In this document: one piece after another, positions 1,555 to 10,206 of the stretch | Position numbering within the stretch: the stretch's first letter is position 1 | How the letters are laid out: each line of letters opens with the position of its first letter | From: Candidatus Eiseniibacteriota bacterium | Lineage (GTDB): Bacteria; JAFGKV01 | DNA: 11,024 bases | Assembly: GCA_025453925.1 (NCBI GenBank) | Contig: JALOPK010000084.1 | Span: 1 to 11,024, forward strand | Direction of reading: 5' to 3' | Position numbers and translations under genes: made by a program | Notes under the pieces: model-generated | Database searches by the model: none | Told to the model about the DNA's origin: nothing | What the model saw: only the letters and a program-made list of their open reading frames with translations

Positions 1555-2007
1555 CTACTTGATGGAGATGGGGATCTCCTTAGGGCGGGCCGCCTCGGAT
1601 TTCGGCAACTCGATCACCAGAACACCATCCCTGAAGGTCGCGCTGATCCTCTCGGGATCGACGGCCCTTGGGAGCGTGAACACGCGCTGGAACTTGCCGT
1701 AGGTCCGCTCCTGGCGATGCCAGTTCTTGCCTTTCTTCTCCTCGCGCTCAAGCCGTTTCTCGCCTTCAACGGTGAGAGTTGACTCGTGAACGGAGAGCCT
1801 GATGTCCTCTTTGGTGAGGCCCGGTAGTTCCGCTTCAACGACAAAGCCATCTTCAGTTTCGTGAATATCGACCTTCGGGCCCCACATCACTCCCGCAGTC
1901 TCGGGCTCGGCGAGCGAGCTCCTTCCGAAGAAGGACTCGAGTAGACGATTCATCTCGTCCTGCAGGGTCGTCACCTCATGGTTTGGTCTCCACCGAACGA
2001 TTGCCAT
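1555..2007 (-). CDS. Hsp20/alpha-crystallin family small heat shock protein (copy 1)
   Basis: A 150-residue small heat shock protein, an ATP-independent holdase that binds unfolding proteins in the cytoplasm and hands them to the DnaK/ClpB system. The start MAIVRWRP is fixed by GGAGGA 7 bases upstream and by the identical start of the neighbouring paralog; a longer open frame upstream holds the promoter and has no family similarity. The alpha-crystallin domain spans about residues 45-143, with VDIHETEDGFVVEAELPGLTKEDI, LTVEGEK, the YGKFQRVFTLP strand and the DGVLVI strand with a variant of the A-x-x-x-n-GVL signature (ATFRDGVLVIELP). The C-terminal IPI in KEIPISIK is the I-x-I tail that docks to a neighbouring subunit in the oligomer. 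It has its own sigma-54-type promoter and terminator, so it is a single-gene unit despite lying directly behind copy 2. Confidence 0.96.
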   Translation of the reverse strand: MAIVRWRPNHEVTTLQDEMNRLLESFFGRSSLAEPETAGVMWGPKVDIHETEDGFVVEAELPGLTKEDIRLSVHESTLTVEGEKRLEREEKKGKNWHRQERTYGKFQRVFTLPRAVDPERISATFRDGVLVIELPKSEAARPKEIPISIK

Positions 2008-2078
2008 TGCTGTGTCCTCCTTCCCGTCGGTTGGGTACCATCTGCACTGTTGCATCAACAGGCACACCGACTGCCGCA

Positions 2079-2095
2079 TGCAGGGATCATGCCAA
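2079..2095 (-). promoter_or_regulatory. Sigma-54 (RpoN) -24/-12 promoter for Hsp20 copy 1
   Basis: On the minus strand the sequence TTGGCATGATCCCTGCA matches the consensus YTGGCACGRNNNTTGCW at all but two defined positions and keeps the exact GG-N10-GC spacing. It lies about 72 bases upstream of the Hsp20 start, giving a leader of roughly 60 bases. The leader contains a small hairpin (CTGTT with AACAG at 2047-2061). Sigma-54 promoters need an AAA+ enhancer-binding activator. The escape from chance is strengthened by the second match in front of copy 2. Confidence 0.7.
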
Positions 2096-2103
2096 AACCC
2101 CTT

Positions 2104-2156
2104 GGGTGCGCATTGGAGTCTACTCCGACGATATCGACGGCCAGTACGGCGCACCC
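2104..2156. repeat. Nested inverted repeats upstream of the copy 1 promoter
   Basis: GGGTGCGC at 2104-2111 pairs with GCGCACCC at 2149-2156. Between them lie GGAGT-CT-ACTCC at 2115-2126 and the palindrome CGATATCG at 2129-2136. The cluster sits just upstream of the -24 element, where an activator or integration host factor could bind. Function is inferred from position and symmetry only. Confidence 0.4.
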
Positions 2157-2301
2157 CATACGACAAGAGAGGCACGGCCTGCCATTATGACAGTTCGCGC
2201 CTGAAAGTAGTCGCGTGACGCACAGTGCCGCGCACACTACCCGGAAGATGAGCGTCAGAGCTACGAAGCCGGGGGAGGGAGCGGGTTTGGCGGAAAACAA
2301 G

Positions 2302-2349: not shown

Positions 2350-2799
2350 CTACTTCACGGCGATGGGGATCTCTTTCGGGCGGGCTATTTCCTTCTTGGC
2401 CAGATGAATGGTCAGGACCCCGCTCTCGAAACTCGCCTCAATCTTGTCCGAATCCACTGCCATGGGAAGAGAAAACGACCGTTGGAACTTGCCGAATATC
2501 CTCTCTTGCCGGTGGCAGTCGCAGTCCTTCTGGTCGGCGTGGCCGTACTTCTTCTCGCCCTCGAGCGTGAGGGTATTGTCGTGTACGGTCAGTTTGATGT
2601 CTTCCTTCGTGACGCCGGGAAGCTCGGCGTCGAAGAGATACCCATCCTTCGTCTCATGTATGTCCACGCGCGGCCCCCACAGACTCGCCGCGGCGGCAGC
2701 CTCGGGCTCACGATGGCCCAAGAACGTCTCAAGAAGGCTGTTCATCTCATCTTGCAGCGTGGTCACGTCTCGGTAGGGTCTCCAGCGTACGATAGCCAT
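2350..2799 (-). CDS. Hsp20/alpha-crystallin family small heat shock protein (copy 2)
   Basis: A 149-residue paralog of the neighbouring Hsp20, aligning over its full length and identical at the start (MAIVRWRP), in VTTLQDEMN, in VDIHET and in ARPKEIPI. The start is set by AGGAGG 7 bases upstream. The alpha-crystallin domain covers about residues 44-142 (DAELPGVTKEDIKLTVHD, LTLEGEK, FGKFQRSFSLP, SGVLTI), and the tail has the I-x-I subunit-docking motif (IPIAV). It differs from copy 1 in an alanine-rich N-terminal arm and in the loop after LTLEGEK, where copy 1 has a Lys/Glu-rich stretch and this one has GHADQKDCDCHRQ, with a C-x-C-H cluster. That loop lies in the beta5-beta7 dimerisation region, so redox or metal sensitivity is conceivable but not shown. 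It is transcribed from its own sigma-54-type promoter. Confidence 0.96.
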   Translation of the reverse strand: MAIVRWRPYRDVTTLQDEMNSLLETFLGHREPEAAAAASLWGPRVDIHETKDGYLFDAELPGVTKEDIKLTVHDNTLTLEGEKKYGHADQKDCDCHRQERIFGKFQRSFSLPMAVDSDKIEASFESGVLTIHLAKKEIARPKEIPIAVK

Positions 2800-2855
2800 T
2801 GTAGTTCCTCCTATGTGGTGGCTTGAACCGCACTCTTGATTGCAGTCCACACTTA

Positions 2856-2872
2856 AGCAGCTATCGTGCCAC
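2856..2872 (-). promoter_or_regulatory. Sigma-54 (RpoN) -24/-12 promoter for Hsp20 copy 2
   Basis: On the minus strand GTGGCACGATAGCTGCT carries a complete TGGCACG -24 block and CTGCT for the TTGCW -12 block, with exact GG-N10-GC spacing. It lies about 57 bases upstream of the start codon, leaving a leader of about 45 bases. It is the better of the two sigma-54 matches in the window. Confidence 0.75.
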
Positions 2873-2885
2873 ACACTGCATGCGG

Positions 2886-2897
2886 GCCATGCATGGC
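2886..2897. repeat. 12-bp perfect palindrome GCCATGCATGGC
   Basis: A perfect dyad 14 bases upstream of the -24 element of Hsp20 copy 2, flanked on both sides by further CATG tetramers (2880-2883 and 2901-2904 neighbourhood). It may be an activator or repressor site, or an element for the divergent adenosine deaminase gene. Sigma-54 activator sites usually lie further upstream, so its role is uncertain. Confidence 0.4.
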
Positions 2898-3047
2898 TCT
2901 CATGGCAGCAGTGGATGCCGTGCCAGATGAGCGTCCCAGTCTGTCCGAGGAGCGCCATTCCCGCATCGGTAGGCATCGTTGCGCCGGTAACCCTTGGTCG
3001 TTTCATTGAGGCCAGTCTGCGAGTCCCCGCGCACCCCTGGAGACACC

Positions 3048-4067
3048 ATGGATCTTACTACCCTGCCCAAGACCGAGCTGCACATGCACCTCGATGGGTC
3101 AATCCCCATGGAGTTGACGTGGCAGCTCATGACTGAGTACCGCCTCAACCCCCGGCCGACCCTGGAGGAAACGGAACGGCTCCTCACCATGCAACCGGAG
3201 GACGAGACGTCCCTGCTGGCGTACCTCGACAAGTTCAGCTACCCCCTGTGGATCACCCAGTTCTACGAGAACATCCAGGGCGCCACCATCGCGATTCTGG
3301 ACCGATTGGCCGCCCTCAATGTCACTTTGGCGGAGCTGCGATACTCACCCATCGTTCACACCTACGCCGGGCTTACCGTTCGCCAGGCCATCCGCGCCGT
3401 GCTGAGCGGGATGAACCACGCCCGGAAAGCCCATGGCATGCGCGTCGGACTCATCGTCATCGCCATGCGCCAGCACGGCCCCCATATCGCCAAGATCCTT
3501 GCACGACAGGCGATCGCCGAGGGGCAGCGATTTCACAGGAGGTCCGGCGTAGTCGGATTCGACATCGCCGGAGCCGAGCGCGGAAACCCACCGGGATTGT
3601 TCCGCGAGGCCTTCCTGCTGGCCCGGCACGGGGGGCTGGGGTTGACCGTTCACGCGGGAGAGGACGAGGGGCCGCGCAGCGTGTGGGAGGCAGTCGACGA
3701 ACTGGGCGCCCGACGCATTGGGCACGGATGCTCGGCCTTGCAGGATATGACCTTGGTGCAACGTCTCGCGCGTGACAGGATCCTTGTGGAATGCTGCGTC
3801 ACATCCAACTACCAGACCGGCGCCGTGCCGCGGGGCGCGCGGCATCCGATCTTCACCTTCCTGGAGCATGGCGTGCCGGTCGCGATCTGCGTGGACAATG
3901 CGACCGTGTCCCGGACCGACAGCGTGCGGGAGAGCGCGCTGGTGGCCGATGAGGTGGGGCTGGACGAGGTCATCCGGATCCACCGGCAGGCCAGGGAGTT
4001 CAGTTTCATCGCTGCTGACGCGCCTTCCGGCTCGGGCAACCCTGATGGCGAGGCTCGGGAACCGTGA
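3048..4067 (+). CDS. Adenosine deaminase family protein
   Basis: A 339-residue metal-dependent deaminase of the amidohydrolase superfamily; members hydrolyse the 6-amino group of adenosine or related purines (some act on aminofutalosine in menaquinone synthesis). The start ATG at 3048 follows GGAG by 5 bases and gives the usual N-terminus. Zinc ligands are visible as H12 and H14 in TELHMHLDGS and H202 in VHAGED, with catalytic E205; H226 is in RIGHG and D283 in ICVDNATVS. GFDIAGAE at 170-177 is the family's substrate-side loop. In place of the D-D pair of mammalian and enterobacterial adenosine deaminases this protein has D283-N284, and the preceding TSNYQTGA...HP segment also follows the actinobacterial-like subgroup. 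The substrate is therefore left open. It is divergent from Hsp20 copy 2 and its stop overlaps the next gene by 4 bases (GTGA). Confidence 0.9.
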   Translation: MDLTTLPKTELHMHLDGSIPMELTWQLMTEYRLNPRPTLEETERLLTMQPEDETSLLAYLDKFSYPLWITQFYENIQGATIAILDRLAALNVTLAELRYSPIVHTYAGLTVRQAIRAVLSGMNHARKAHGMRVGLIVIAMRQHGPHIAKILARQAIAEGQRFHRRSGVVGFDIAGAERGNPPGLFREAFLLARHGGLGLTVHAGEDEGPRSVWEAVDELGARRIGHGCSALQDMTLVQRLARDRILVECCVTSNYQTGAVPRGARHPIFTFLEHGVPVAICVDNATVSRTDSVRESALVADEVGLDEVIRIHRQAREFSFIAADAPSGSGNPDGEAREP

Positions 4068-5671
4068 GGACGCGGATCATAGCGGGCATGGTGGTTCCGG
4101 CTCTACTTCTCGTCGGGGTGGCGGATGCCGCGCGACACTCGGCCACCCTCGCCCACCGAGAGCACAGCAGAGACCGCCCGGGTCTCTCCGGCCCGATGCT
4201 TCAGGCGCCCAGCGTTGCGGGGTTCTTTCTCGTTCACTACACGACGGTCGGTGTCGACGCGACGACCGGTACGTATGCCGCGGCGATCGCGGCCTGGGCC
4301 GATGCCTCTCGACAGGTGTTCACCGGCCTCGACTGGCTGCCGCCGCCGCCCGACGGCACGGCGGGCGGGGATTCGAGGTACGACCTGTACCTCATGGGGC
4401 TCGGCCAGTCCCTGACCGGATACACCCAACTGGAGGGACTCCTGCCCGGAGGGTATCCGGACGACGCGACCAGCTACGCGGTGCTGGCGACCGGGATGAC
4501 CGACGCGGAGGCATCGGCGGGGGTGGCGCACCACGTGCATCAGGCATGCCAGTATGCGTATTCGGCGAATGAGCTCGGCGCATGGATGGAACAGAGCGCC
4601 GGATGGATCGAGGAACTCGTGTTCCCGGCCGCCAACCAATGGGTGCTGCGTACGGGATCATACCTCGGGAACGCCCGGAAGTACTTGTTTGTCTCCGATG
4701 GCTGGACGGAGCAGGGGGCGCTTCTGTGGCCGAAGTATCTGGCCGAGTCCGCCGGCGATGCCGACCTTATCCGGCGCATCTGGCTTCGATGTGCCGATGT
4801 TCCCAACAATAACACCGTTTCGGCAACACAGCAGGAACTGGCCTTCTCGGGCCTCGCTTCTCTCCAGGAGGAGTTCCAGACGTTCACTGCCTGGAACTAT
4901 CTGTCCGGCGTTCATGACGACGGGATGCACTACGACGAGGGCGATCAGATCACCGGATCCGTGCCCCTCTTGGCCAGTCACGCCTCCTATCCTGCCGAAG
5001 GCCAGACCAGCGTGCTCACCGCGCCGTACGGCCTTGGCGCCTCCTACGCGGAGTTTCTCTACACCGCCGGAAGCGAGATCCGCATCAGCCTGGATGGTTC
5101 CGACACTTACGGCCCGTGGGGCGCAGGAGTGATTGCGATCAGCGGCTCCGGCCAGGCGACCTATGGTGCCTTTGCCGTGGACGCCGTCACCGGCATGGGA
5201 GACACGACCATCGCCGGGTGGTCCACTCTCCAACGCGTGGTGCTCGTCGTGCAGAACCTGCGCCTCGCTGCAGGGGCGCCCGGGCCGTTTTGCTACACCG
5301 CCGATGTCGCGGGATCCTCGCCGCCCTCCACCCCCACCGGGCTGGTCAGCGCGGTGTCTGGCGACTGGATCCGCCTGACGTGGTCGCCGTCGACCGATCC
5401 CGACGGCGACCTCGAAGGGTATCACGTGTATCGGTCAACACGGACGTTTCTCCCGCTGCCGGCCATGACCAGGATCGCCTCCGCAGTGACGGACGAGGAC
5501 CCTGGAATGCCTGGTGTGCAATGGACGGATCAAAACACCCTCGGGGCCGACGTTGTGGGCGATGAAGGTGCCAACTACTTCTGGGTTCTCACCGCCGTGG
5601 ATGCCGCCGCCAACGAATCGCCGCCCACCGGCGCCGTCGGGGAGTTCGACTTCCTGGTGCACTACCCCTGA
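4064..5671 (+). CDS. Secreted MXAN_6640-like putative metalloprotease with fibronectin III domain; zinc motif degenerate
   Basis: A 535-residue exported protein. Start GTG at 4064 overlaps the deaminase stop and yields a classic signal peptide: basic RTR, hydrophobic core to about residue 19, and a likely cleavage after ADA (residues 20-22). The body resembles the MXAN_6640-type putative metalloproteases: YDLYLMGLG at 106-114, then HQACQYAYSANE and WMEQSAGWIEELVF at 159-187, where the family normally has an HExxH zinc motif followed by a W-x-E-xx-A-x-W-x-E helix. Here the motif reads A-H-H-V-H-Q-A (155-161): the catalytic Glu and the second His of HExxH appear replaced, so peptidase activity is doubtful. 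Residues about 421-520 form a fibronectin type III domain (PSTPTGLVSAVSGDWIRLTW, YHVYRS, YFWVLTAVDAAANESPP). No sortase, PEP-CTERM or type IX sorting tail is evident. Family assignment is by recall and less certain than the secretion and FnIII calls. Confidence 0.8.
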   Translation: MRTRIIAGMVVPALLLVGVADAARHSATLAHREHSRDRPGLSGPMLQAPSVAGFFLVHYTTVGVDATTGTYAAAIAAWADASRQVFTGLDWLPPPPDGTAGGDSRYDLYLMGLGQSLTGYTQLEGLLPGGYPDDATSYAVLATGMTDAEASAGVAHHVHQACQYAYSANELGAWMEQSAGWIEELVFPAANQWVLRTGSYLGNARKYLFVSDGWTEQGALLWPKYLAESAGDADLIRRIWLRCADVPNNNTVSATQQELAFSGLASLQEEFQTFTAWNYLSGVHDDGMHYDEGDQITGSVPLLASHASYPAEGQTSVLTAPYGLGASYAEFLYTAGSEIRISLDGSDTYGPWGAGVIAISGSGQATYGAFAVDAVTGMGDTTIAGWSTLQRVVLVVQNLRLAAGAPGPFCYTADVAGSSPPSTPTGLVSAVSGDWIRLTWSPSTDPDGDLEGYHVYRSTRTFLPLPAMTRIASAVTDEDPGMPGVQWTDQNTLGADVVGDEGANYFWVLTAVDAAANESPPTGAVGEFDFLVHYP

Positions 5672-5865: not shown

Positions 5866-6837
5866 TCAAAGCCATCCGTGGGCCCGATACCACGACAGGG
5901 TATCGGAGATGCCGGCCGACAGCCCGATGCGCGGGCGGAATCCGAGCTCCCGCTCGGCCTTGAGGGGCAGACACACCCAATGTGGAAAACAAGCCTCCGC
6001 GATCTTGTTGCGATCGAGCGGGGTTGGTCTGCCCGTCAGACGCTCCACCATTCGGCATGCCAGCCCGAGTAGCGCGAGGGAGGACAGCGGGACCGTGATC
6101 ACTCGGATCCGCCGCCCCATGTCGGCGCGCAGGACCTGCGCCAGACCCTCCCATCTCACGATCTCGCGGGAACTGATGAAGTACGTACTCCCCGACGGCA
6201 TTGCCGCCGATCCGGCGGCCAGCGCGCCAGCGACCACGTCCTGCACGTGGGTGAGACTCTGGGTTCCCCCCCGCGGGACCGGCAGGATACCGCGCGCAGC
6301 CGCCCTGAACAGCGGCAGGAAGTCGCGATCCCGCGGGCCGTACACTGCGGGCGGCCGGATCACGCTCACGCTGAGACTGTCCCGGTATGCGGCCACGACC
6401 TGCTCTTGGGCCAACTTGCTCTGCCCGTACCACGACACAGGAGCAGGCTGATCGCTCTCCCGTGCCGGCTGCCCCGTCGCGCTCGGTCCAGCGGCGGCCA
6501 ACGATGAGAACACGACCACCCGCGAGACTCCCCCGGCTTGACTGCACGCGTCGAGTAGCGCATCCGTGGCATTGACGTGGAACGCGAAAAAACCTTCCCT
6601 CGTCTTCGCATGGGTCACACCGGCCACGTGGTACACGCGGTCTACGCCGGCGACCGCCGGGAGCAATTCCCCGGCTGTCCAGTTCGCGCGTCGGACGACG
6701 TCTATGTCCTCCGGGAGCCACTGAAGAGAGGAGCGGGGGCGAAGCAGCGCCCGTACGGAGCGTCCCTGGGCGAGGATGCCCTCAACGAGATGGGAGCCGA
6801 TGAATCCGCTCGCCCCCGTCACCAAATCCAGCGGCAT
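5866..6837 (-). CDS. cerR: NAD(P)-dependent epimerase/dehydratase, probable ceramide reductase (CerR-like)
   Basis: A 323-residue extended short-chain dehydrogenase. The Rossmann nucleotide loop is T7-G-A-S-G-F-I-G14, the catalytic Ser lies in VVVFSSLAAAG (110-117), and the Tyr/Lys pair is Y137-G-Q-S-K141. VIRPPAVYGPRD is the usual substrate-domain strand and SLTHVQDVVAGAL the later one. On fold alone it would be an unspecified sugar-type epimerase. Its position as last gene behind spt and a GNAT-like acyltransferase argues for the CerR role, reduction of the 3-keto group in bacterial ceramide synthesis, as in Caulobacter where the reductase is annotated as an NAD-dependent epimerase. Its ATG starts 2 bases after the stop of the acyltransferase gene and has no strong Shine-Dalgarno, which suggests translational coupling. 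SDR call is firm; the ceramide role is inferred from context. Confidence 0.85.
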   Translation of the reverse strand: MPLDLVTGASGFIGSHLVEGILAQGRSVRALLRPRSSLQWLPEDIDVVRRANWTAGELLPAVAGVDRVYHVAGVTHAKTREGFFAFHVNATDALLDACSQAGGVSRVVVFSSLAAAGPSATGQPARESDQPAPVSWYGQSKLAQEQVVAAYRDSLSVSVIRPPAVYGPRDRDFLPLFRAAARGILPVPRGGTQSLTHVQDVVAGALAAGSAAMPSGSTYFISSREIVRWEGLAQVLRADMGRRIRVITVPLSSLALLGLACRMVERLTGRPTPLDRNKIAEACFPHWVCLPLKAERELGFRPRIGLSAGISDTLSWYRAHGWL

Positions 6838-6839
6838 GG

Positions 6840-7958
6840 TCAGGCGGTGGGAATCTCGTAGATCCGATAGGTCTTATACCGCCGGCCTCCCATGGCCTCG
6901 ATGTCCCGGATCATGAATTCATTGTCTTCGAGCACCCACCCCATCTCACCGCGAATGTAGCCGGCCTTGCGACCCCGCCGGAGGGATTCGAGCATCAAAA
7001 CTGCCTCGATGCCCTTGCGCCTGAACTGCTCCTTCACTCCCAAGGTGAGCAAGCGGGCCTCGGAGATCTTTCGGCTGTACCAGAGCGCCTTGAGAAAGCC
7101 CAGGGGGAACAGCCGGCCGTTGAGGTGCGCGAGCACGCGATTCAGGTTGGGAAGGGAAAGCGAGAAGGCCGCGGGCGTCCCCTTATGTTCCGCGATAAGC
7201 ACCAGCCTCGGATCGATTGCTGACTTCACTTCCTTGGCCAGATGGTCGAACTCCCGCGTCGTCATGGGAATGAATCCCCAGTTGTTGCTCCACGCCGAGT
7301 TGTAGATGTCGCGAACGATGGCGACATCCTCGCCAAAGCGCTTCATATCCATACACCGGATAGTGATGCCGGCCCGCTGCATGGCGCGATCCGCGATCCG
7401 TGACACCCGGGCCGGATCGTCTCCACCGGTGAAGAGCTCAAAGGCCACCAGATCCTTGATCTTGGCGAACCCGGCGGCTTCGAGCAGGGCCGGGTAGTAC
7501 GGTGGGTTATACGTCATCATCACCATGGGAGGGTATCCGAATCCATCGGTCAGGAGACCGCACGTCTCGTTGGTGGACCAGTTGCAGGGGCCGCGCATAC
7601 GTTCCACGCCCTGTCCTCGGAGCCAGGTGCGGGCGGCCTCGGCAAGGGCGATGGCAACCCGGGAATCGTTCACGGACTCGAAGAATCCAAAAAAGCCGAC
7701 ACGTTCGCACCGGAAGACATTGTGCTGTTCGTTCAGACAGACGCCGATCCTGCCCACCACCTCTGCCCGGTCCGTGGCCGTGAAGATCGAAGTGAGTGCG
7801 TGATCGTGGAACGGGTGACGCCCGGGCACCACCAACGCCCGCTCCTGGCTCAGGAGCGGAGGAACCCAGTTGGGATCACCGCGGTAGATCCGCCAGGGCA
7901 TCCGCTGGAACCGCGCGATGTCTCGTCGGGACCGCGCCTCGCGAACCTCGATGCTCAT
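6840..7958 (-). CDS. bcerS: GNAT-like acyltransferase, probable bacterial ceramide synthase (bCerS-like)
   Basis: A 372-residue protein of the large GNAT-like family related to E. coli YghO. Signatures seen are YRGDPNWVPPLL at 25-36, GRIGVCLNEQHN at 69-80, GPCNWSTNETCGLLTDGF at 123-140, PPMVMMTYNPPYYPALLEAAGF at 143-164, and a C-terminal GNAT core with FRRKGIEA (acyl-CoA loop variant) and GWVLEDNEFMIRDIE. Members next to serine palmitoyltransferase genes act as the bacterial ceramide synthase, which N-acylates the sphingoid base and is unrelated to eukaryotic ceramide synthase. The ATG overlaps the spt stop by 4 bases (ATGA), tying the two enzymes together. No signal peptide or membrane segment is evident, so the enzyme is probably cytoplasmic and works at the inner membrane face. 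Alternative: an acyltransferase for another amine product of Spt-like enzymes. Confidence 0.87.
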   Translation of the reverse strand: MSIEVREARSRRDIARFQRMPWRIYRGDPNWVPPLLSQERALVVPGRHPFHDHALTSIFTATDRAEVVGRIGVCLNEQHNVFRCERVGFFGFFESVNDSRVAIALAEAARTWLRGQGVERMRGPCNWSTNETCGLLTDGFGYPPMVMMTYNPPYYPALLEAAGFAKIKDLVAFELFTGGDDPARVSRIADRAMQRAGITIRCMDMKRFGEDVAIVRDIYNSAWSNNWGFIPMTTREFDHLAKEVKSAIDPRLVLIAEHKGTPAAFSLSLPNLNRVLAHLNGRLFPLGFLKALWYSRKISEARLLTLGVKEQFRRKGIEAVLMLESLRRGRKAGYIRGEMGWVLEDNEFMIRDIEAMGGRRYKTYRIYEIPTA

Positions 7959-9136
7959 ATCAGCGAGAATGCCTTGCCCACCCTGCCAAAGATCTCCAGC
8001 ACGCGATCAAGCTGCTGGTCCTCGTGGGTCGCCATGTAACTCGTCCGCAGCAACTCGTCGTTGGGCGCCACGGCCGGCGGGATGACCGGATTGGTGAACA
8101 CCCCTTCCTCGATGAGGGTCTTCCAGAGTCGGAATGTCTGCAGCATCCCCAGGCCGACTTTAATGGGGATGATGGCGGTCTGGCTCTTGCCGGTGTCGAA
8201 TCCGAGCTCCTTGAATCCCCGCCGCATCCGTTCACCGATCACGTTCAGGCGGGTGACCCGTTGCGGTTCAGCCTCCAGCACCTGCAGCGCCGCCATGGCG
8301 GCGGCCACCGAGGCGGGCGGCATGCTGGCTGAGAAGATCAGGCTGCGTGCATGATGCTTGATGTAGTGGATCACCTGCTCATCCCCGGCGACAAAGCCTC
8401 CAAGCGAGGCGAAGGACTTGCTGAAAGTCCCCATGACGAGGTCAACCCCTTCGGTCAGACCGTAGTGCTCGGCCGTTCCTCTCCCTGTGGGCCCTACCAC
8501 ACCAATGCCGTGGGCGTCATCTACCAGGAGACGGGCATTGTAGCGGTGGGCAAGATCCACCAGGGTGGGAAGGTCCGCCAGATCCCCCTCCATGCTGAAG
8601 ACGCCATCAACGACGATGAGCTTGGGGCGGTCCACGTTGGCGGCGAGGATACTCTCAAGCGCCGTGAGGTCGCCGTGAGGGAACTTCAGGTTCTTGCCGA
8701 AGCTCAAGCGACACCCGTCAACGATGCTGGCGTGATCCTCCCGATCGGTGATGACGAGCTCGTTTCGCGCGACCAAGGAGGAGATAACTCCCAGATTCAC
8801 CTGAAAGCCCGTGCTGAAGACCAGGGCCATCTCCTTGCCCATGAACCTGGCAAGCCGGTGCTCGAGCTCTTCGTGGAGCGTCAGGGTTCCGTTGAGGAAA
8901 CGAGAGCCCGTGCAGCTTGAGCCGTAACGCTCAAGTGCCTCCCTCGCGGCGTTGATCACGCTCGGGTGATGCGTGAGGCCGAGGTAGTTGTTCGACCCGA
9001 TCATGATCACTTCCTTCCCATCGATGCGCGCGATGGTCTCCTGGAAGGATTCGATGGGGCGGAAGTAGGGGTAAATACCGAGCGCCATGACTTCCTTGGC
9101 CTCGGTGAACCGGTAACACTTCTCGAACAGATCCAT
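7955..9136 (-). CDS. spt: Serine palmitoyltransferase (alpha-oxoamine synthase family, PLP-dependent)
   Basis: A 393-residue PLP enzyme of the alpha-oxoamine synthase family, which condenses an amino acid with an acyl thioester and releases CO2. Here serine plus an acyl-CoA or acyl-ACP would give 3-ketosphinganine, the first step of sphingolipid synthesis. PLP site residues are visible: SNNYLGL at 48-54, H135 in DREDHASI (stacks on the ring), D206 and H209 in DDAHG, and the Schiff-base lysine K240 in GTFSKSF; R364 in LRTSYMATH would bind the carboxylate. The start MDLFEKCYRFTEAKEV is preferred because it begins at the family's usual N-terminus and has GGAGG 4 bases upstream; an in-frame ATG pair about 50 bases earlier is possible. 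Relatives include 2-amino-3-ketobutyrate CoA ligase (Kbl), but the adjacent ceramide synthase and reductase genes favour Spt. It starts 118 bases after recO. Confidence 0.9.
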   Translation of the reverse strand: MDLFEKCYRFTEAKEVMALGIYPYFRPIESFQETIARIDGKEVIMIGSNNYLGLTHHPSVINAAREALERYGSSCTGSRFLNGTLTLHEELEHRLARFMGKEMALVFSTGFQVNLGVISSLVARNELVITDREDHASIVDGCRLSFGKNLKFPHGDLTALESILAANVDRPKLIVVDGVFSMEGDLADLPTLVDLAHRYNARLLVDDAHGIGVVGPTGRGTAEHYGLTEGVDLVMGTFSKSFASLGGFVAGDEQVIHYIKHHARSLIFSASMPPASVAAAMAALQVLEAEPQRVTRLNVIGERMRRGFKELGFDTGKSQTAIIPIKVGLGMLQTFRLWKTLIEEGVFTNPVIPPAVAPNDELLRTSYMATHEDQQLDRVLEIFGRVGKAFSLI

Positions 9137-9254: not shown

Positions 9255-10082
9255 TCACCGGCGGGGAGTCTCACCCGCCGCGCCCGGCAGCGTGCAGGCG
9301 ATCGCCTGGCCGCCGTACGCCGAACCGCGCACCTCCGCGAGGAACGCCAATGAGCGGCTCTTCGAGGGCACCGGGGTATGGGTCTCCCACACGTCTCGGG
9401 CGATCGCAGCCAGCCTGGCAATGGTCACTTCGGATGCCGGACGGAGCTTCCATTGAGCGAACGGTTCAGCCAGCATCGTGCGAAGAAGCATCAAATCTCC
9501 CGCAGCAGTCGGTTCTTTGCAAGCGTCTTGAGGCGTACAGGAGCTACACAGGACTCCTCCGCGCGCGACGCTAAGCCATGTCGTCTCTCCCGCCGGACCG
9601 CCGCACCGAGCACATGCATCGACGCGAAGTCCATACCCGAGAGCCTTCTGAAGATGAAATTCGAAGGCCACCATGGTTCGATCAGCCTCGTCAGGCGACG
9701 CGCCGTTGAGCGCGAGAAGAAGCCACTTCAGCAGCAGAAAAACCCGGGAGGAAGGCTCCTCATCCGGGAGCTGTGAGAGTATGAGTTCGAGGGCGTAGGC
9801 GGCGAGTCCGAAGCGCTCCGGAGATTGGGACAGCGCCTCGTGGGCGACGTCGAGTTCAACGCCACTCACCGTTCGCAGACCCGATCCTTCCCCCATGTAC
9901 ACGGAACAGGTGATCAGGTTGGTGGGCTGGAAGGCCGCAGCGGCGACGCGCCCCGGACGGCGTGCCCCCCGGGCGATCACGCCGATCTTGCCCAGCTCCC
10001 TGGTGAAAAGGGAGCCGACGAGGCTGCTCTCGGAAAAAGGCGTGGTGCGGAGGACGATGCCTTCGACACGCTGGAGCCTCAC
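9255..10082 (-). CDS. recO: DNA repair protein RecO
   Basis: A 275-residue recombination mediator that, with RecR, loads RecA on single-stranded DNA coated with SSB during gap repair. The N-terminal OB-fold begins VEGIVLRTTPFSESSLVGSLFT and continues through GKIGVIARGARRP. The following helical domain has the family's ELILSQLPDEEPS and F-x-L-LKWLLLAL segments. A zinc-finger is present as C157-x-x-C160 and C179-x-x-C182 (CARC ... CSSC). The GTG start at 10082 is chosen because RecO proteins start just before this V-x-G-I-V-L-R motif and GAGG lies 8 bases upstream; a GTG 60 bases earlier is in frame but lacks a ribosome site. It follows the DUF502 gene at a distance of about 125 bases on the same strand and is probably constitutively expressed housekeeping. 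Confidence 0.95.
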   Translation of the reverse strand: MRLQRVEGIVLRTTPFSESSLVGSLFTRELGKIGVIARGARRPGRVAAAAFQPTNLITCSVYMGEGSGLRTVSGVELDVAHEALSQSPERFGLAAYALELILSQLPDEEPSSRVFLLLKWLLLALNGASPDEADRTMVAFEFHLQKALGYGLRVDACARCGGPAGETTWLSVARGGVLCSSCTPQDACKEPTAAGDLMLLRTMLAEPFAQWKLRPASEVTIARLAAIARDVWETHTPVPSKSRSLAFLAEVRGSAYGGQAIACTLPGAAGETPRR

Positions 10083-10206
10083 CGCGTCGACCTCGCGCTC
10101 ATGTCTCTCCGCGGATACCGCGTTGAGGGAACCCAGGCGCACGGGTCATCCTGCCGGACTCGCGGTCCCGACGTGCGGCTGAGCATGAATCCTCAGACCG
10201 GGGGAC

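Follow-up and report, generated by a model that had tools for sequence, protein, structure and literature searches.

The window, by which I mean the whole stretch of 11,024 nucleotides that was analysed, carries three consecutive genes, spt, bcerS and cerR, together with recO, a gene of the MXAN_6640 type, an adenosine deaminase-family gene and two adjoining HSP20 genes (Table 1). The open reading frames lie on the minus strand where the first-pass annotation had placed them, and both junctions that it described, the overlap between spt and bcerS and a 2-base gap between bcerS and cerR, were confirmed. The spt gene begins with an ATG at position 9136 that has GGAGG just upstream, and scans for promoters and terminators around the operon gave no signal above shuffles. 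No sphingolipid role is known for recO.

Table 1. Genes and junction features of the window, with positions counted from its first letter.
Feature	Position	Strand	Description	Remarks
HSP20 gene	1555-2175	-	small heat-shock gene	adjoins the second HSP20 gene
HSP20 gene	2350-3006	-	small heat-shock gene	adjoins the first HSP20 gene
adenosine deaminase-family gene	2994-4067	+		4-base overlap with the start of the metalloprotease gene
MXAN_6640-type gene	4064-5671	+	putative metalloprotease	convergent with the operon; 99.7 bits, model cut-off of 140 not reached
cerR (epi)	5866-6837	-	SDR-type ceramide / 3-ketosphinganine reductase, 323 aa	
bcerS (YghO/aca type)	6840-7958	-	tandem-GNAT N-acyltransferase, 372 aa	
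ATGA overlap	7955-7958	-	spt stop / bcerS start, 4 bases	same overlap in the same-genus genome
spt	7955-9136	-	serine palmitoyltransferase (PLP alpha-oxoamine synthase), 393 aa	K240
recO	9255-10142	-	Pfam RecO_N/RecO_C	118 bases upstream of spt, same strand

The phylum is represented by three genomes, each from a different species: that of the window (82% complete), one from the same genus and one from the same family (98% complete). All three share the order recO, spt-bcerS-cerR, convergent MXAN_6640-type gene and adenosine deaminase, with recO directly upstream of spt in both relatives. The same-genus genome repeats the 4-base overlap and the 2-base gap exactly; the same-family genome keeps the gene order and the 2-base gap between bcerS and cerR, but its spt and bcerS do not touch. 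Spt, bCerS and CerR are 85%, 74% and 65% identical to their same-genus counterparts and 76%, 64% and 53% identical to those of the same-family genome. The operon is far beyond chance, since its three genes match three enzymes of one pathway and since their order, overlap and gap recur in the same genus. The MXAN_6640-type gene, a conserved convergent neighbour in both relatives, marks the 3' border of the ceramide operon.

The neighbourhood shows some further features. The MXAN_6640-type protein also gives a weak fn3 match, the adenosine deaminase-family protein is highly conserved (87% in one relative, 75% in the other), and the same-family genome has an HSP20 gene in the corresponding neighbourhood.

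The first gene was described in the first-pass annotation as encoding a PLP-dependent oxoamine synthase with the motifs of serine palmitoyltransferase (SPT), and this description holds. Its Pfam match is Aminotran_1_2, and the predicted PLP lysine, K240, lies in GTFSKS and is accompanied by the rest of the catalytic set: H135 (the stacking histidine), D206 (contacting PLP N1) and R364 (binding the substrate carboxylate). The best PDB match is the Sphingobacterium multivorum enzyme, SmSPT (3a2b, E 3.5e-123), to which Spt is 50% identical; its identity to Kbl and BioF of E. coli is 35%. Among positions taken from published work on SmSPT (PMC10196870) and on the cysteate-using enzyme SulA (PMC9304779), 14 SmSPT residues have identical counterparts in the window protein (N52, Y54, G80, S81, H138, S185, D210, A212, H213, T241, S243, K244, A274 and R367), and S239, G77-S78 and A270 of the window Spt are different in E. 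coli Kbl and/or BioF. Thus the main catalytic and substrate-contacting residues of the S. multivorum enzyme (3a2b, 8guh) are conserved. The differences are Met271, Ser53 and Ala79, replaced by Ile267, Asn50 and Thr76, each of which is the commonest residue among the other cluster SPTs.

Model searches point the same way. The best NCBIfam model is the SPT model NF047600, whose 540.6 bits exceed the scores of bioF (384) and glycine C-acetyltransferase (355) and yet lie below the curated cut-off of 640 bits for this Bacteroidota SPT equivalog. The other non-Bacteroidota SPTs tested do not reach 640 either (515 for the Myxococcus protein, 477 for that of Halobacteriovorax), so the cut-off delimits a narrower, Bacteroidota equivalog; judged by its score, the window Spt is not filed under NF047600.

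Alpha-oxoamine synthases are closely related to one another, which raises the question of whether this enzyme might be a BioF- or Kbl-type synthase of an unrelated pathway, lying by coincidence beside unrelated acyltransferase and epimerase genes. The first-pass annotation had named a grouping with Kbl or BioF as evidence against its own reading. In trees of 73 and 23 rows, the window protein lies among SPTs, apart from Kbl and BioF, and the SPT clade has support of 94/95 in the 23-row tree. Forcing the window Spt and Kbl together costs 13.8 to 15.3 log-likelihood units, a difference that does not reach significance (AU test, p 0.26 and 0.17). The test is weak on function because, in an unrooted tree, it asks only whether the window protein could be the SPT branch nearest Kbl. 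The phylogenetic support for placing the protein among SPTs is therefore good, though not absolute. The phylum's genomes, moreover, carry separate BioF/Kbl-like genes elsewhere, and spt is associated with bCerS and CerR genes in many phyla. Given these data, a BioF/Kbl-type enzyme of some other pathway is very improbable. Within the SPTs, the window protein is of the Bacteroidota/deltaproteobacterial subgroup rather than of the Caulobacter (Rhodobacteria) type.

A BioF-like synthase of the same genome (L125, G000:C152:9579-10607) has an SPT-like serine before the PLP lysine and an alanine at the position diagnostic for SulA versus SPT; it branches just outside the SPT clade.

What else could an SPT-like enzyme with these neighbours make? 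A related aminolipid, either a sulfonolipid from cysteate or a 1-deoxyceramide from alanine, would require the same three reaction types, and sulfonolipid synthesis does use the same enzyme families (PMC9304779). Alanine and glycine are used by SPT, if poorly (PMC10196870), and could in part serve as substrates here; the choice of serine over cysteate or alanine cannot be fixed from sequence alone. Nevertheless, Lys281, which distinguishes SulA from SPTs with alanine at this position (PMC9304779), aligns with Ala270 in the window Spt, and alanine is found in all 65 other SPTs aligned. Furthermore, the SPT match (414 bits) far exceeds those to the cysteate acyltransferases 7u7h (226 bits) and 28eh (249 bits). 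I consider a product of this kind improbable, and a ceramide backbone the better reading of the cluster.

The second gene had been called a YghO-type, GNAT-like acyltransferase, and its relatives bear this out. An alignment of 375 aa that spans the whole protein shows 35% identity (E 9e-80) to YghO of E. coli BL21, which is a bCerS/aca homologue (PMC9386255); the closest bCerS in the named genome collection is 49% identical. Family searches returned a marginal GNAT match in Pfam and none in NCBIfam, and a search for a sequence relative of P0002 with a solved structure found none. An AlphaFold2 model built from 37 sequences (pLDDT 92.9, pTM 0.90) has its best structural matches among tandem GNATs (Z 20.9-24.5) and also matches N-myristoyltransferases over its whole length (Z about 16.4). 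The model is thus a confident one of a tandem GNAT similar to N-myristoyltransferases, the fold that would be expected for an N-acyltransferase using long acyl thioesters.

Two further bCerS/YghO-like proteins are encoded in the same genome (L031, G000:C390:1251-2354, 35% identical; L032, G000:C185:2823-3848, 30% identical), neither with an spt match on the contig sequence examined. Extra copies of a similar kind also occur in the same-family genome and in genome G003.

The third protein is an extended SDR by both Pfam and NCBIfam searches and is 30% identical to CerR/epi of BL21 (E 2e-35), in agreement with its earlier description as an SDR epimerase-type reductase. The Rossmann motif TGASGFIG (TGxxGFxG) at position 7 and YGQSK at position 137 (Y137xxxK141) are intact, and K278 and W287 are common to the cluster CerRs and BL21 CerR and absent from an SDR paralogue in the same genome. 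The backbone of the CerR family tree is poorly resolved, and the group of this paralogue nests inside it.

Taken together, sequence homology, the catalytic residues, the modelled fold, the conservation of the operon and the repeated association of its genes make it very likely that the three genes form an operon for synthesis of the dihydroceramide backbone. Spt, with PLP on Lys240, would condense L-serine with a long-chain acyl thioester to give 3-ketosphinganine with loss of CO2; the tandem-GNAT bCerS would then N-acylate 3-ketosphinganine with a second acyl thioester, and CerR, an NAD(P)H-dependent SDR using Y137xxxK141, would reduce the 3-keto group to yield the presumed dihydroceramide. 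The acylation-before-reduction order is adopted by analogy with Caulobacter (PMC11087976). The lipid would be destined for the outer envelope. LpxC is found in all three phylum genomes, whose owners are therefore probably LPS-making Gram-negatives.

The two later steps could also run the other way, as in eukaryotes, with CerR reducing 3-ketosphinganine and bCerS acylating sphinganine. One group has put forward this order for Caulobacter (reference 5 of PMC11087976; PMC9386255), and sequence does not decide between the two. In Caulobacter cerR mutants, however, oxidised ceramide accumulates, and Caulobacter CerR is periplasmic by experiment whereas Spt and bCerS are cytoplasmic (PMC11087976). 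Reduction first is a rather unlikely variant of the ceramide pathway, and acylation first is retained here.

Where do the acyl groups come from? The first-pass annotation remarked that a dedicated acyl carrier protein and acyl-ACP synthetase are missing from the window. Their absence stands, and a search with BL21 AcpR found no dedicated AcpR in either the window or the three phylum genomes, giving only one weak ACP match per genome, which in the window's genome and the same-family genome is acpP in the fatty-acid synthesis cluster. A search with BL21 AasR gave weak partial matches only, of the general acyl-AMP ligase kind. AcpR and AasR are tied to Rhodobacteria SPTs, and Bacteroidota and deltaproteobacterial SPTs form another subgroup (PMC9386255), so for an Spt of the latter type their absence is expected and leaves no gap in the operon. 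The same paper reports distant homologues in some myxobacteria (PMC9386255). The specialised pair was not detected, which makes the acyl-AcpP of fatty-acid synthesis, or else acyl-CoA, the likeliest donor. A more speculative extension, which I regard as possible but doubtful, is that this is a minimal three-gene system in which Spt and bCerS take acyl groups directly from housekeeping AcpP, independently of dedicated carriers, and which would be portable to other hosts. A compact three-gene set of this kind, lacking a dedicated ACP, would be a handy construct for asking, beyond Caulobacter, which acyl donor is used and whether acylation or reduction comes first.

Scanning genome contigs with the bCerS alignment found at least 581 relatives. 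Among the best 80 of these, which span more than 20 phyla, spt lies within 4 kb in 59 and both spt and cerR in 44, and 11 have the spt-bcerS-cerR order of the window; some of the other loci are cut by contig ends. The three ceramide genes are often clustered, and a Black Sea study of 2024 extended the predicted producers to 40 phyla (PMC11334938). Thus the compact adjacency that the first-pass annotation singled out is common and already published, and the arrangement is not new; the observation is a sound annotation of another example of a cluster known from many phyla. What it contributes is a poorly sampled lineage, here three species, with a conserved ceramide operon, alongside the numerous phyla for which sphingolipid synthesis had already been predicted.

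In two myxobacterial loci inspected (L046 and L045), Spt has about 100 additional residues at its C terminus, which the window Spt lacks. An ACP gene was considered for the stretch of roughly 440 bases that separates the spt match from bcerS in Myxococcota and was rejected, as this stretch encodes the Spt extension. Other myxobacterial loci have an equal-sized gap between the Spt match and bcerS.

The operon is best regarded as a well-supported, ordinary example of a known ceramide system, with lipid production inferred. It shares its three enzyme families with Caulobacter crescentus (CC_1162, CC_1154, CC_1164) and with the E. coli BL21 cluster (ECD_02850-02854), to whose Spt, bCerS and CerR the window proteins are 37%, 35% and 30% identical. 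The proposed match to the Caulobacter route is upheld by the homology of bCerS and CerR both to their BL21 counterparts and to spt neighbours in many phyla, and no result of the kind that the first-pass annotation had named as refuting came up. The description of the Caulobacter genes as partly dispersed was loosely worded, as all five are described as clustered, from CC_1154 to CC_1165 (PMC9386255). Unlike both of these systems, the window genes have no adjacent acpR or aasR, and their SPT belongs to the Bacteroidota/deltaproteobacterial type. Clusters of Myxococcota, Gemmatimonadota, Acidobacteriota and Bdellovibrionota (for example L046, L093, L099 and L114) have the same order on the same strand, and those of Gemmatimonadota (L093) and Acidobacteriota (L099), with 2-14 bases between matched stretches, are about as compact; the window differs from these same-order clusters of other phyla in the 4-base overlap of spt and bcerS and, where the myxobacterial ones are concerned, in the shorter Spt.
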